Of a stretch of 64,000 nt of DNA, positions 28,673 to 37,314 are shown one piece after another. Position 1 is the stretch's first letter. Every line of letters starts with the position of its first letter. Where the stretch lies: NCBI RefSeq assembly GCF_001613465.1, contig NZ_BDCK01000044.1, positions 1 through 64,000 on the forward strand. Direction: 5' to 3'. Source of the DNA: Nocardia niwae NBRC 108934 = DSM 45340. Its GTDB lineage: Bacteria > Actinomycetota > Actinomycetes > Mycobacteriales > Mycobacteriaceae. Made by a program: the position numbers and the translations under genes. Below the pieces are notes generated by a model. It was not told the origin of the DNA. It searched no databases and saw only the letters and a program-made list of their open reading frames with translations.

Positions 28673-29350
28673 TTACTGCGTGGGTTCGCTCAGCCCGGTC
28701 TGATAGGCGATCACGACCAGCTGCGCTCGGTCGCGCGCACCCAGTTTCACCATCGCGCGGCTGACATGGGTACGCGCGGTGGCCGGGCTGAGAAACAGTG
28801 CGGCGCCGATCTCGTCGTTGCTCAGGCCCTGCCCCACCAAGGCCAGCACTTCACGCTCGCGGTCGGTCAGCACGGCGAGCCGCTCCTGCGCGGACTTGGC
28901 GGCCCTGCGCTGCGCGGTGAACTGGCTGATGAGGCGGCGGGTGACCCGCGGTGCGAGCAGCGCGTCACCGGCGGCGACCACCCGGATGGCGTGCAACAGC
29001 TCGGCGGGTCCGGCGTCCTTGAGCAGGAATCCGCTCGCGCCCGCCTGCAAGGCGTCGAAGACGTTCTCGTCGGTGTCGTAGGTGGTGAGGATGAGCACCT
29101 TGACCTGCTCCATCCCGGTGGCCGCCGCGATCTGCGCGGTGGCGCGTATCCCGTCCAGCCGTGGCATGCGGATGTCCATGAGGACGACGTCGGGGCGAGT
29201 GGCACGGGCGAGTTCGACGGCTTCCGCGCCGGTGGTGGCTTCGCCGACCACCGTGATGTCGTCCTCCAGGTCGAGCAGGACTTTGAAGCCGGAACGGACC
29301 AGGCGTTCGTCGTCGGCGAGCAGGACCTTGATCGGTGGCGTGGAGTTCAC
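28673..29350 (-). CDS. NarL/LuxR-type response regulator
   Basis: A 225-residue response regulator. The receiver domain (1-125) has the acidic pair in LADDERLV, the phospho-acceptor Asp59 in VVLMDIRMPR and Lys in GFLLKDAG. A LuxR-type helix-turn-helix (about 155-215) contains LTDREREVLALVGQGLSNDE and ATARTHVSRAMVKLGARDR. The GTG start at 29350 overlaps the kinase stop (GTGA), so the two are translationally coupled. Its DNA sites are plausibly the paired repeats at 28517-28569 and 30624-30676 that bracket the operon. Confidence 0.9.
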   Translation of the reverse strand: MNSTPPIKVLLADDERLVRSGFKVLLDLEDDITVVGEATTGAEAVELARATRPDVVLMDIRMPRLDGIRATAQIAAATGMEQVKVLILTTYDTDENVFDALQAGASGFLLKDAGPAELLHAIRVVAAGDALLAPRVTRRLISQFTAQRRAAKSAQERLAVLTDREREVLALVGQGLSNDEIGAALFLSPATARTHVSRAMVKLGARDRAQLVVIAYQTGLSEPTQ

Positions 29351-30567
29351 AAGCGCGATCCGACCGGGGCCAGGGGCAGACGAGCGGTGACCTCGAATCC
29401 GCCGCCGGGACGCGCGACCGCATCGAGTTCACCACCGAGCAGCCGGCAGCGTTCGCGCATTCCGACGATGCCGCGGCCGGTCGCGGAGGAGCCGTCGGCG
29501 CGCGCCGGGCCGTGCGCGCAGTCGCGGCGGCCCTCGTCGGCCACCCGGATCCGCAAGGCGTCGAGACCGGGTTCGAGCGCCACCGTCACTCGGGTCGGGC
29601 CCACGTGCCGGATCACGTTCGTGATCGATTCCTGCACGATGCGGTACGCGGCGCTGCCCACCGCACTCGGTAACGGCGTCACCGGGGAGGCCTGCTCGAA
29701 AGCGATATCGAGCCCGGCGTCGCGCGCCTTGCCGATGAGTTCGTCGATCTGACCGAGACCCGGATAGGGCTCGCGTTCGTCGCCGTCGCGCAGGACCCCG
29801 AGGATCGCGCGCATCTCCCGCAGTGCCCGTGAACTGGTCTGCTCGATGGTGCGCAGCGCTTCACGAGCCTGTTCCGGTCGTTTGTCGAGCACGTGCGCGG
29901 TGACGCCGGACTGCACGTTGATGATGGCGATCGCGTGGGCGACGGTGTCGTGGACTTCGCGGGCGATGCGCAGCCGTTCGGCGTCGACGCGCGCCCTGGC
30001 CTCCTCGTCGCGGGACCGTTCGGCCAGCTCCGCCCGTTCCTGCGCGTCGGCGGCGATGACCCGGCGGGATCGGACGGACTCGCCGAGGATCGTGCTGATC
30101 ACCGACGCGCCGATCCGGAAGAACACCCAGCCGATGGCCACCAGCGGCCGGATGTCCGCCGCGGCGATCAGCCAGCCGAGGGCGAGCACCGTGATGCCCC
30201 CACCGGCGATCAGCAGCGAGCGCCGCCCGTCGCCGTAGGCGGCGAGGGTGTACAGGGCGACGAAGAGCCCGAGATAGGACAGCCGGTCGGGGAACCCGAG
30301 GCCGAAATAGATCAGGCTGGCCAGCGCCGTGACCGCGAACACCGCCACCGGTTGCCTGCGGCGCGCGGCCACCGCCAAGCCGCTGACGATCAGCAGGACA
30401 TATCCGAAACCCGACACCGGTGTGTAGGCGGGCTCGAGCGGGACTGGGATCGCGGCGCTCTGCACTTGGATCACGGTGACGAACAGCGCCAGCAGGACAT
30501 CCGGGAACCAGGCGGGCCTACGCGAGAACCAGGCGGACAGCCGTCGCGACGCCGCCCGTTGAATCAT
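29347..30567 (-). CDS. two-component sensor histidine kinase (HisKA_3 type)
   Basis: A 406-residue membrane kinase. Five to six hydrophobic helices in residues about 15-170 form the sensor, without a large extracellular loop. The dimerisation box is LRIAREVHDTVAHAIAI with the phospho-acceptor His in REVHD. The ATPase domain contains RIVQESITNVIRHV (N box) and GRGIVGMRERCRLLGGEL. This is the NarX/DesK-like type typical of actinobacterial systems that sense membrane-active compounds and often control adjacent ABC transporters. The start may be ATG 30567 or 30585. The second repeat copy lies 57 bases upstream. Confidence 0.88.
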   Translation of the reverse strand: MIQRAASRRLSAWFSRRPAWFPDVLLALFVTVIQVQSAAIPVPLEPAYTPVSGFGYVLLIVSGLAVAARRRQPVAVFAVTALASLIYFGLGFPDRLSYLGLFVALYTLAAYGDGRRSLLIAGGGITVLALGWLIAAADIRPLVAIGWVFFRIGASVISTILGESVRSRRVIAADAQERAELAERSRDEEARARVDAERLRIAREVHDTVAHAIAIINVQSGVTAHVLDKRPEQAREALRTIEQTSSRALREMRAILGVLRDGDEREPYPGLGQIDELIGKARDAGLDIAFEQASPVTPLPSAVGSAAYRIVQESITNVIRHVGPTRVTVALEPGLDALRIRVADEGRRDCAHGPARADGSSATGRGIVGMRERCRLLGGELDAVARPGGGFEVTARLPLAPVGSRL

Positions 30568-30623
30568 GCCGTGAGCGTACGGCATCCGCGAGTGCTCGCG
30601 CTGCCGCGCGGGCGCACGACCGG

Positions 30624-30676
30624 CTACGACGATCGACGCAGCCGACCCCGGCTTGTCTACGCGCATGCGCGTAGAC
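30624..30676 (-). repeat. 53-bp inverted repeat, copy B (kinase promoter region)
   Basis: This copy pairs with 28517-28569. Its 30655-30676 part is itself a perfect 22-bp palindrome (half-site GTCTACGCGCA), and 30624-30645 is the perfect 22-base match to copy A. It sits immediately upstream of the kinase gene and is a strong operator candidate. Confidence 0.72.
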
Positions 30677-30714: not shown

Positions 30715-30909
30715 TCACCGCCAGAGATCGCCGCAGGGCAACTCGGGCAGCTCGACGTGGACGTCGTCGTCGATCGTGACGATCAACTCCGGATGACTGC
30801 GCGCCAAACCGGCGGCCACGCTCCTGGCCTGTTCCGCACAAGCTCGGTAGTCCAGGATCAAGGCGCCGGATTCGATATGGATATGCCGGATGTGCTGCGG
30901 ATTCGTCAT
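30715..30909 (-). CDS. small hypothetical protein
   Basis: A 64-residue frame starting MTNPQHIRHIHIESGALILD and ending PELIVTIDDDVHVELPELPC before GDLWR. The alternating beta/alpha pattern and conserved-looking acidic run IDDDVH suggest a folded protein rather than a shadow frame. No clear Shine-Dalgarno sequence is present, so a leaderless mRNA is possible. I do not recognise the family. Confidence 0.5.
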   Translation of the reverse strand: MTNPQHIRHIHIESGALILDYRACAEQARSVAAGLARSHPELIVTIDDDVHVELPELPCGDLWR

Positions 30910-31139: not shown

Positions 31140-32381
31140 TCAGCGCGGCGGCCGGTTCATGTCCCGGTTCATCGTCGGGATCTCGATGCTGATCGGCATC
31201 TCCAATTCGGCCAGATAGACCAGGGCCGCCTGACGGAGGAATTCGTCGAACAACCAGTAGGCATCCGGCGCCAACGGCACCACCGGCAGCAGACCTTCGC
31301 GCACGGCGATGAACGGACCCCAGCTCACCCGCAGCAGCGGATCCCAGACCGGCTCCCTGGGGATGGCCAGCCCGTCGGCGATCTTGTCGCCGAGCAGGAA
31401 GCGGGTGAACGCACCGAGCACCGGCTTGGTGAGGATGGCCAGATCGAGATTGGCGCCCAGACGCAGCAGGCGGTCGGCGAGCTTCGCGCCCTCGGGTGTC
31501 GCCGCCAGGATCGGGTCGAGCACCTGGGCGGCCTGGGAATCGGCCTCGGCCCAGGAGTTGGGGATGTACTCGTCCCGGATGCCGAGCATGTGCGCGCACA
31601 CCTGCCACGAGTGCAGGAATGCCTCGGACTCGGCGGCGGGGATCGGCACCTTCCACGCGGTCAGATGCTTCATGACGGTCGTGGGCAGGCTGTGCCAGGT
31701 GACCATCATGTCGTTCTGGCTGATCGGGATGTCCTCGTCGGCCGAGTGCACCCAGTGCGGCGACTGCGGCAGCAGGTGGCGCACCGCGGCGTGCACCAAC
31801 CGGGTTTTCAGGCAGGTCACGACCATCTCGCCCTGCGGGCCATAGGCGTTCGCGGTGCCGATGTCGTAACCGAGTTTGGCGGTCTTGGAGATGCGGTCCT
31901 TCAGATCGTGGCCGCCCTTGGAGTAGTAGACCGCGCGGGCCTCCTTGGGAATTACCGTGCTCATCATGCCGCTGGCCAGCCCGTACAGCACACCGAGATA
32001 CAGGCCGCGCTTCTTGTTGAACTCGACCGCGGTGGCCAGCTTGCCCTGATCCGCCCAGGGCGGCAGCTGACGGGCGTATTCCATGAAGTCGCGCAGATCC
32101 GTCGGCAACCCGGCAGGCAGCGGCTGGCCGTTCCTGGTCCAGGTGCGCAACAACTCGTTGACCCTCGGCACCTCCCCTCGGTCCAACAGCGAGGCGACCA
32201 ACTGGTCCACCTCCGGATCCCACACGGTGAGCGGGTCGGCCCCTTCTCCCGTGCCCGCCACCGAACCCTGCGGTGACCACGTCCACGGCTCCGCGCGCGC
32301 CGGGGTCACCATGGCCAGCGCGCCGAACGCGCCCAGTACGCCCCCGGCCTTCAAAGCGTTACGCCTGCTGAGTCCATCCAT
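31140..32381 (-). CDS. Tat-exported Lcp-type oxygenase (latex-clearing protein family, DUF2236)
   Basis: A 413-residue protein with a Tat signal (LSRRNALKAGG, cleavage near ALAMVTPARA). It belongs to the MpaB/Lcp haem b oxygenase family. Residues Glu147, Arg163, Lys166, Thr167 and His197 (in KTRLVHAAVRHLLP) have the same spacing as Glu148, Arg164, Lys167, Thr168 and His198 of the Streptomyces K30 latex-clearing protein, where His198 binds haem. Lcp cleaves poly(cis-1,4-isoprene) outside the cell. ATG 32381 follows GAGGAG; longer starts lack a ribosome site. It stands alone, with a KstR-like palindrome at 32520-32531 upstream. The true substrate may be another isoprenoid. Confidence 0.78.
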   Translation of the reverse strand: MDGLSRRNALKAGGVLGAFGALAMVTPARAEPWTWSPQGSVAGTGEGADPLTVWDPEVDQLVASLLDRGEVPRVNELLRTWTRNGQPLPAGLPTDLRDFMEYARQLPPWADQGKLATAVEFNKKRGLYLGVLYGLASGMMSTVIPKEARAVYYSKGGHDLKDRISKTAKLGYDIGTANAYGPQGEMVVTCLKTRLVHAAVRHLLPQSPHWVHSADEDIPISQNDMMVTWHSLPTTVMKHLTAWKVPIPAAESEAFLHSWQVCAHMLGIRDEYIPNSWAEADSQAAQVLDPILAATPEGAKLADRLLRLGANLDLAILTKPVLGAFTRFLLGDKIADGLAIPREPVWDPLLRVSWGPFIAVREGLLPVVPLAPDAYWLFDEFLRQAALVYLAELEMPISIEIPTMNRDMNRPPR

Positions 32382-32783
32382 GTCTGCGCCACTCCTCATT
32401 GAGCACGGGGCGTCACCGTGATGATGCGACGTAGGCGTCGACGCCCGCTCCTCGCCGTCGCAAGAGATAAGAACAGTGATTAACTTAGCAAGCCACACCA
32501 GGTGTTGTCTGCACTTTTCAGAACTTGTTCTCCTCCGCTCGCACCACACGAGAGAGCCACCGGAGACGGTGTGATCACTGGGTATGAACAGCACATTAGC
32601 AGCATTCGGACACAGGTTTCACAATCGGCCACCGCCTCAAAGCCAGTGGAGACGATAGCGAAAACACCCCACCCCACGCCTGAGTCGACTGCTAATAAAC
32701 AGTCACATAGATCGCTGCGCGAACGATCGCCTCCGATCCCGTGCACAGCGGGGCCCTCTGAAACCAGCACCTGGAGACACGAA
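32382..32783. other. 402-base upstream region, no gene
   Basis: A noticeably AT-richer stretch (32460-32720) without a supported reading frame. It contains the palindrome AGAACTTGTTCT at 32520-32531. It probably holds the promoter of the Lcp-like gene, with a long leader or several regulatory sites. Confidence 0.55.
32520..32531. promoter_or_regulatory. KstR-like palindrome upstream of the Lcp-like gene
   Basis: AGAACTTGTTCT is a perfect 12-bp palindrome. It matches the AGAAC-nn-GTTCT core of KstR operators, which control sterol-catabolism genes in Mycobacteriales. It lies 139 bases before ATG 32381. The assignment is by resemblance only. Confidence 0.4.
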
Positions 32784-36376: not shown

Positions 36377-36934
36377 TCAGCCACGCAGCGCGCGGTCCAG
36401 CAGCGCCCACGCCTGCCGAGCGGTCTCCTTCTTCGACTGCGCGTCGGTCTTCGACAGCACGGCCGCGAGCATCGCCAGGGCCAGGACCACGTCCGCGGTG
36501 GTGATGTCCGCACTGATCGTGCCGCGCTGAGCCGGGTCCTCGAGCTTCTCCGCGATGAGGGTGATCAGCCGGCGCGCCACCTCGAACAGGCGCATGTCCT
36601 CGGTGTTGGTGGGATGGATCATCGCGATGAAGGCCGCCGAGGTGGTGATCTGGTCGACCATGATCGCGAGCAGGTCGTCCACGGTGACCGCGGGATCGGC
36701 TGCCAGCGCCTCGATACCATCGATGTTCTCCTCGAACACCGCCAGCGCGATGCTCTCCCGGGTCGGGAAGTGCCGGTAGAGCACGCCCTGCCCGACTCCG
36801 GCGGCCCGCGCGATGGAGCTGAACGGCGCGTCGAATCCGCTGTCGGCGAAGACATCTCGCGCCGCCTGGATCAAGGCCGCCCGGTTGTCGGCCGCCGCCT
36901 TCGGCCCCCTGTTCACACGGCGTGGCGAGGTCAT
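36377..36934 (-). CDS. TetR-family regulator
   Basis: A 185-residue regulator. The helix-turn-helix is at about 18-65 (NRAALIQAARDVFADSGFDA, then IARAAGVGQGVLYRHFPTRE). The C-terminal ligand domain is of the SbtR-like type (AAFIAMIHPTNTEDMRLFEV). A conserved feature of this type is its repression of an adjacent oxidoreductase or exporter. Here the divergent neighbour is the broken LVIVD gene, so the target is not evident. ATG 36934 begins the basic arm TSPRRVNRGPK; the longer frame to 37312 is not family-like. Confidence 0.87.
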   Translation of the reverse strand: MTSPRRVNRGPKAAADNRAALIQAARDVFADSGFDAPFSSIARAAGVGQGVLYRHFPTRESIALAVFEENIDGIEALAADPAVTVDDLLAIMVDQITTSAAFIAMIHPTNTEDMRLFEVARRLITLIAEKLEDPAQRGTISADITTADVVLALAMLAAVLSKTDAQSKKETARQAWALLDRALRG

Positions 36935-37314
36935 TCGGGCCACGTTACCGGACCCGAGCGGGGCCACCGCACACGCCGGAAAGCCCCCGCGGCGCCCGAA
37001 GGTGAGCCGCACCCCATTGACGCGGCGCCGTGACCTCACGCACACTACCAGGTAACCGGACAATAGTGTCCGGCATGGCGATGGGCCCGATCGGCCCGGC
37101 TCGGCGGATAGCACGCCGTCGCGCCACGCCGGATCCGGCGCTCGCTCGACGCCACCACGCCCCACCGGGTCGTTCGGATACACCACGACGCTGCCGCCAC
37201 CCCGACGGCCGCACCAGCGACGCTCGGAACCGACCATCAGCCGTCCGAGCTCGCAGGGGACCGGTAACCGAGCACACGGGAAAGGCGCCCTCACCGCCGA
37301 GGGCCGGTACATCC

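Follow-up and report, generated by a model that had tools for sequence, protein, structure and literature searches.

A latex-clearing protein gene of Nocardia niwae and an upstream element possibly shared with genes for other secreted proteins

In silico analysis of a 64,000-nt stretch of DNA from Nocardia niwae, hereafter called the window, indicates that the gene at positions 31140 to 32381 encodes a latex-clearing protein (Lcp). Our reading as a whole, to which we give a probability of roughly 0.85, is that the enzyme is an Lcp, that its haem, export and chemistry would follow those described for Streptomyces sp. K30 and N. farcinica, and that its gene would belong to a small regulon of secreted proteins. 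The enzyme itself is ordinary: it is one more Lcp of a known family that is common in Nocardia, and finding it is of low surprise. The interest, which is moderate, lies in an uncharacterised control element upstream of the gene and in the candidate partner proteins whose genes carry versions of it.

Results

The window gene encodes a latex-clearing protein

A minus-strand frame of 413 aa fills the interval exactly, with its ATG at 32381 and its stop at the low end; the plus-strand frame across the same interval is another one and is interrupted by a stop. The gene and its likely ribosome-binding site are as follows.

31140..32381, minus strand: lcp gene, encoding a 413-aa latex-clearing protein (rubber oxygenase); open frame, Pfam, PDB match, tree, residues
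32392..32397, minus strand: likely ribosome-binding site GAGGAG; read from the sequence

When the protein was compared by phmmer with all PDB chains (E up to 1), two LcpK30 sequences were matched (E 5.2e-148, 496.5 bits, and E 2.6e-137), and no chain beyond these two. The best alignment pairs residues 1-406 with residues 1-405 of LcpK30, and 227 of 403 positions (56.3%) are identical. The Pfam domain of the protein is MPAB_Lcp_cat (PF09995; E 1.6e-18, 68.1 bits, cut-off 23). The window genome contains one Lcp, the next two matches being 26% and 23% identical, and ten further PF09995 matches. The common domain and these ten matches would fit a remote member of the MpaB family, a haem protein that serves a different role. 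We consider such an identity extremely improbable and, as far as sequence goes, refuted by the full-length match to LcpK30, the place in the Lcp clade, and residues E147 and K166 (see below).

Haem-pocket residues and predicted fold

The preliminary description had named five residues as reproducing the spacing of the functional residues of Lcp. All five occur at the numbers given, an agreement well beyond chance: E147, R163, K166, T167 and H197 align with E148, R164, K167, T168 and H198 of K30, and their codons are located as follows.

31941..31943, minus strand: Glu147 (K30 Glu148, charged residue of the substrate channel); alignment, role from PMC5522427
31881..31895, minus strand: codons 163-167, with Arg163, Lys166 (K30 distal haem ligand) and Thr167; alignment, roles from PMC5522427
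31791..31793, minus strand: His197 (K30 proximal haem ligand); alignment, role from PMC5522427

According to excerpts of that paper, the haem of K30 has His198 and Lys167 as its axial ligands, Glu148 is the sole charged residue in its substrate channel, activity was not detectable after the Arg164Ala exchange, and 2% was kept after Thr168Ala.

We then examined these positions in 120 distinct Lcps, the window's included, which fall into three identity bands of 74, 26 and 20 sequences, and in an outgroup of eight distant members of the same Pfam family, one of them from the window genome. All 120 Lcps have E at position 147; at position 166, 118 of them have K and two have R. All eight MpaB-like outgroup proteins have P, S, A or T at position 147 and E at position 166, yet they too possess R163, T167 and H197; E147 and K166 are therefore the telling residues. 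K166 is less diagnostic than 118 of 120 suggests, because Lys167 is given as present in only 59% of 495 Lcps (PMC5522427, same excerpts). The two sequences with R at position 166 are Lcp paralogues of N. takedensis NBRC 100417 (L084, from 5998, and L088, from 364).

Structure prediction, proposed beforehand as a check, recovered the Lcp fold, consisting of a globin core with extra N- and C-terminal helices. The AlphaFold model, built from 18 sequences, is of moderate confidence (mean pLDDT 66.3, pTM 0.73), with residues 142-158, Glu147 among them, below pLDDT 50. At E <0.001, Foldseek matched it only to three LcpK30 chains (E 1e-25 to 2e-24), with TM values of 0.75 by query and 0.82-0.83 by target.

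Phylogeny and distribution of lcp

One maximum-likelihood tree of 73 rows was calculated, eight of them outgroup. The eight outgroup rows form one side of a branch with support 89/92, and the phylogeny, which had been set as the refuting test, placed the window protein on the other side of this split, inside the Lcp clade. There it falls in a starred set of 13 Nocardia rows (100/99) that includes N. farcinica, and its nearest relatives among the Nocardia Lcps are those of Nocardia sp. CY41 and N. abscessus. The end-to-end match to LcpK30, E147 and K166, the clade and the moderate-confidence fold model thus bear out the earlier proposal of an Lcp-type rubber oxygenase. By sequence, residues, clade and predicted fold, the window protein is almost certainly a true latex-clearing protein.

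Full-length lcp genes were found in 125 of 148 Nocardia genomes (134 places), and lcp pieces in four more. In a sample of the order outside Nocardia, 18 of 244 genomes have a match below 1e-100 (counted by eye). The presence of lcp in pathogenic Nocardia species is also a subject of published work (PMC9070631, in excerpt).

Signal peptide

A Tat-like start, MDGLSRRNALKAGG...ARA, is visible by eye in the window protein.

32289..32381, minus strand: candidate Tat-type signal peptide, codons 1-31 (SRRNALK, hydrophobic stretch, ARA); by eye, weak profile matches

Both Tat profiles score below their cut-offs (PF10518, 17 bits, cut-off 22.7; TIGR01409, 15.5, cut-off 16.7). An RR pair lies within the first 40 residues of 141 of 143 extracted relatives, TatC is encoded in the window genome, and an excerpt of PMC6311187 lists LcpK30 with Tat.

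Genes around lcp in the window

Nine neighbours were queried, encoding an ABC transporter, an alpha/beta hydrolase, a LuxR-type response regulator, a histidine kinase, a 64-aa ORF, a PadR, a peptide deformylase, a PepSY protein and a TetR. Each was present in only 2 to 9 of 80 related loci, several of which are short, so that absence there means little; we rejected the possibility that lcp forms a conserved operon with these genes. The matches occur mostly together, in Nocardia sp. CY41 (L044), N. beijingensis (L046) and N. araoensis (L074). None of the queried neighbours was found within the 13-kb locus of N. abscessus NBRC 100374 (L045), the Lcp of which is 94% identical.

The LuxR-type response regulator and HisKA_3 histidine kinase genes lie behind lcp (28673-30666, minus strand). 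Either is present in only 5 of the 80 loci, and because of this scarcity the two-component system is no general partner of lcp. The 64-aa ORF, also behind lcp (30715-30909, minus strand), is present in four of the 80 loci; it has no Pfam match and no upstream element of its own in the window, and homologues in two other genomes are preceded by the lcp element described below. The TetR gene at 36377-37033 is likewise present in only four of the 80 loci. Rfam and tRNA scans of the window found none.

Two classes of lcp upstream regions

Comparison of the 200 nt upstream of lcp in related loci revealed two classes. The first is found in the N. nova group, Antrihabitans, Actinomadura, Actinoplanes and N. 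puris. These loci have a nearby TetR that is 57-93% identical to that of locus L099, and in many cases a palindrome preceded by a TTGTGA box; they resemble the LcpR systems of Gordonia, Actinoplanes and S. coelicolor (PMC7413915, in excerpt). The second class, to which the window belongs, has instead a conserved element of roughly 20 nt with the pattern TAAGTTAMTNNNNRTTC.

32470..32491, minus strand: conserved upstream element TTGCTAAGTTAATCACTGTTCT, possibly an extended -10 box (TGCTAAGTT) plus further fixed bases downstream; alignment, scoring

A looser pattern, in which the TG is not required, was run on 78 loci and the window. In these 79 rows, TAAGTTAMTNNNNRTTC occurs in 46, none of which has an LcpR-like TetR in the fetched stretch, versus 25 of the other 33. 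Among 36 non-redundant sites, the TG before TAAGTT is nearly fixed (T 89%, G 100%), although it lay outside the search pattern, and TGNTAAGTT may be an extended -10 box. When the window was scored for the element, the best value (37.3) was obtained at lcp and the next was 9.8.

We then screened the 148 Nocardia genomes with the stricter pattern TGNTAAGTTAHKNNNNRTTC, which gave 103 sites in 84 genomes; the reversed pattern, used as a control, gave none in the 148. Most of the sites (82 of 103) are located 29-127 nt upstream of an lcp match on the same strand. The exact element is present at 80 of the 134 full-length Nocardia lcp genes, and an LcpR-like TetR lies within 5 kb of 35; no gene combines the two, and 19 lack both. 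Because the strict pattern was used on these genomes, some of the 19 hold a variant element, as do all four that were scored (25.7 to 32.3). In the 7.3-Mb window genome, the exact element occurs at one place, before lcp, and a search with the L061 TetR at E 1e-60 detected no LcpR-like TetR. The TetRs at the compared window-genome loci reach at most 39% over about 185 aa among the matches listed.

Some loci deserve separate mention. In locus L008 of the window genome (G000:C37, plus strand), TetR and MpaB-like ORFs overlap (468-1157 and 1108-2331) and mimic an lcpR-lcp pair; the MpaB-like protein is 24.7% identical to the window Lcp and has Thr at position 147 and Glu at position 166. Nocardia genomes G128, G113, G046, G006 and G124 contain an additional and more distant lcp, with 53-54% identity to that of the window. 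In G128 and G113, this distant lcp has an LcpR-like TetR nearby and the other lcp copy has the element. Finally, in L175 (G128:C4:227200-229500), the element precedes a PucR-like gene, as read from its translation, just upstream of an lcp; its product is a possible regulator candidate, seen in one instance.

The element at other genes

Of the 21 exact sites away from lcp, 20 were fetched, two of which reach contig ends. The 18 readable sites precede seven genes for a small secreted protein, two homologues of the 64-aa ORF, two cutinase-like genes, and seven other or unclear frames. Genes seen at a single site and identified from translations only (flavohaemoglobin-like, PucR-like, MpaB-like, acyl-CoA-ligase-like, transposase-like and two unclear ones) were not taken as members of a shared set.

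For sensitive scoring, we used a weight matrix trained on 34 distinct lcp sites that included neither the window nor its 97% relative. The cut-off was the 1% level of 5000 random pieces from lcp loci with unmatched base composition, a limit that is partly answered by 400 block-shuffled sequences per case. Gene starts were placed by alignment and may be incorrect in some cases.

The small protein, about 100 aa in length, begins with a signal-peptide-like stretch, and its conserved core ends in CDLAT-SALP-PC (GDIIGIIVLLGVTPFQMLTGGVCDLAT-SALPNPC). No match was found for one member in Pfam or for another in NCBIfam, and the predicted structure was unusable (mean pLDDT 51, pTM 0.22). The gene was found at 74 places in 68 genomes, 67 of which contain a full-length lcp, the remaining one (G007) having lcp pieces at contig ends; a Fisher test of this association (p 5e-6) ignores kinship and is not counted as evidence. 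At 39 of the 74 places, the gene follows lcp in the same orientation at a distance of 19-565 nt.

We scored 29 of the 35 unlinked places and 16 of the 39 behind lcp. At the 1% level of the matrix, the element precedes 28 of the 29 genes away from lcp versus none of the 16 directly behind it, a contrast that is expected if the gene is co-transcribed behind lcp and needs its own switch elsewhere. The six other unlinked places comprise two with the exact element and four with weak matches. In 26 of the 27 non-redundant unlinked cases, the score was reached by at most 1 of 400 block shuffles; the exception, L247, was reached by 26. The best sites are located 23-44 nt before the gene, in diverged form, in 18 of the 29 cases. 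Five others lie about 195 nt before it and are followed, on our own reading, by codons resembling an lcp start; these five constitute no independent evidence, because they resemble former lcp promoters. In the window genome, the site of the small-protein gene (C30:153995-154297) is weak and diverged and lies 41 nt ahead of the gene; its score of 15.0 (p about 0.007) was matched by none of 400 shuffles.

The cutinase-like gene encodes a protein with a PF01083 match (E 4.2e-12) and PDB relatives 5w95 and 3aja. It lies 50-266 nt behind lcp in at least 12 genomes (best 81 of a longer list), and none of the four such places that were scored has the element. In the window genome, it is located away from lcp (C18:239070-239996). 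Its site departs from the strict pattern at one position of 15 and has three mismatches to the 22-mer, and up to and including the start codon its leader hardly differs from that of lcp. Alone, this site is weak evidence, as the reversed control also gave one site at three mismatches. A third site in this genome, in C19, also has three mismatches, the level of that control site, and no clear gene behind it, and was discarded. Elsewhere, the element was found at 4 of 26 distinct unlinked cutinase-like places (29 rows, three places twice), so that most of the family is not involved; one of the 26, L218, is near a contig end and may follow a broken lcp. Two further cutinase-like genes were found through exact element sites. 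The window genome thus has a version of the element at all three genes, diverged in the two partners of lcp.

Discussion

Function and substrate of the window Lcp

By analogy with K30 and N. farcinica, the window Lcp would be exported by the cell, probably by the Tat route, carrying one b-type haem. His197 would ligate the haem iron and Lys166 could cap it in a closed resting state, whereas Glu147, Arg163 and Thr167 would line the site where O2 and the polyisoprene chain meet. Cleavage of the chain would then release oligo-isoprenoids with aldehyde and ketone ends. For N. farcinica NBRC 15532, excerpts of PMC9782182 report that lcp is essential for growth on polyisoprene, that its RNA is up 21-fold on rubber or polyisoprene, and that the purified Lcp takes up O2 with latex and forms C20-C50 oligo-isoprene aldehydes.

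It is conceivable, though in our view unlikely, that Lcp naturally acts on another isoprenoid, such as squalene, carotenoids or plant-surface terpenoids, and that rubber merely fits its channel. Occurrence in 125 of 148 Nocardia genomes is wide for an enzyme that attacks a rare food, and the cutinase-like gene nearby or co-controlled in some genomes would suit plant surfaces. However, the induction by polyisoprene and the requirement for growth on it in N. farcinica NBRC 15532 (PMC9782182) argue for rubber, as does the fact that the residues separating Lcp from its cousins are those of K30.

A small regulon or a promoter box

We give about even odds to the proposal that in many Nocardia lcp has escaped LcpR control and joined a small regulon. 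This regulon, marked by a new DNA element and switched by some regulator, would comprise lcp, the secreted protein of about 100 aa and, in some lineages, the cutinase-like esterase, the latter two as helpers in rubber attack. The claim that these three genes are under shared control is slightly favoured. A small regulon of secreted proteins for rubber attack would be the simplest reading of a shared element. As to the roles of the helpers, our guesses are that the esterase would strip the lipid coat of latex particles and that the small protein would wet or deliver polyisoprene. In support of the regulon we count the mutual exclusivity of element and LcpR and the contrast between unlinked and lcp-linked small-protein genes. 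The proposal is weakened by shared ancestry, by the training of the matrix on lcp sites, by the diverged sites of the window genome, and by the 19 of 134 lcp genes with neither feature in the strict test. In titles and abstract beginnings of the open-access literature, we found no element shared by lcp, cutinase and small secreted protein genes.

Alternatively, the element may be a strong promoter box that was spread by copying or deletion around lcp, in which case its distribution would reflect history and no common regulator. To this explanation we assign somewhat less than an even chance. It would account for the resemblance of TGNTAAGTT to an extended -10 box (our own reading), for the near identity of the cutinase-like and lcp leaders in the window genome, and for the five small-protein sites followed by lcp-start-like codons. 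It accounts less well for conservation that continues from the -10-like box to RTTC, which the search pattern fixes, and in part further, and for the rarity of the exact pattern, with its single place in 7.3 Mb. The diverged sites close to small-protein genes, and their absence from such genes behind lcp, also speak against this explanation.

Should the shared element prove to be a genuine switch, the induction of Nocardia lcp in the absence of LcpR would be explained, and two secreted proteins would become candidate helpers in rubber degradation. Such helpers are relevant because a rubber enzyme must reach an insoluble, coated polymer.

Comparison with known lcp systems

The window Lcp resembles LcpK30 of Streptomyces sp. 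K30 (PDB 5O1L, 5O1M) in being alignable with it over the whole length, in the five functional residues and in its predicted fold, but it belongs to a different subclade of the tree. In K30, oxiAB genes are tied to lcp (excerpts of PMC7413915 and PMC9782182), whereas genes of this type were not found among the scanned window neighbours. The lcp genes controlled by LcpR or a similar TetR (Gordonia VH2, Actinoplanes OR16, S. coelicolor, N. nova group) encode the same enzyme family. However, these loci are equipped with a TetR gene and palindromic sites (PMC7413915, in excerpt, and the loci compared here), both of which the window lcp lacks. For N. farcinica, the comparison was made with strain L089, whereas the functional data are from NBRC 15532. 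The queried window neighbours are all absent from the 7-kb contig of L089, but the Lcp of L089 is 77.2% identical to that of the window, falls in the same starred group of the tree, and is encoded downstream of the same element.
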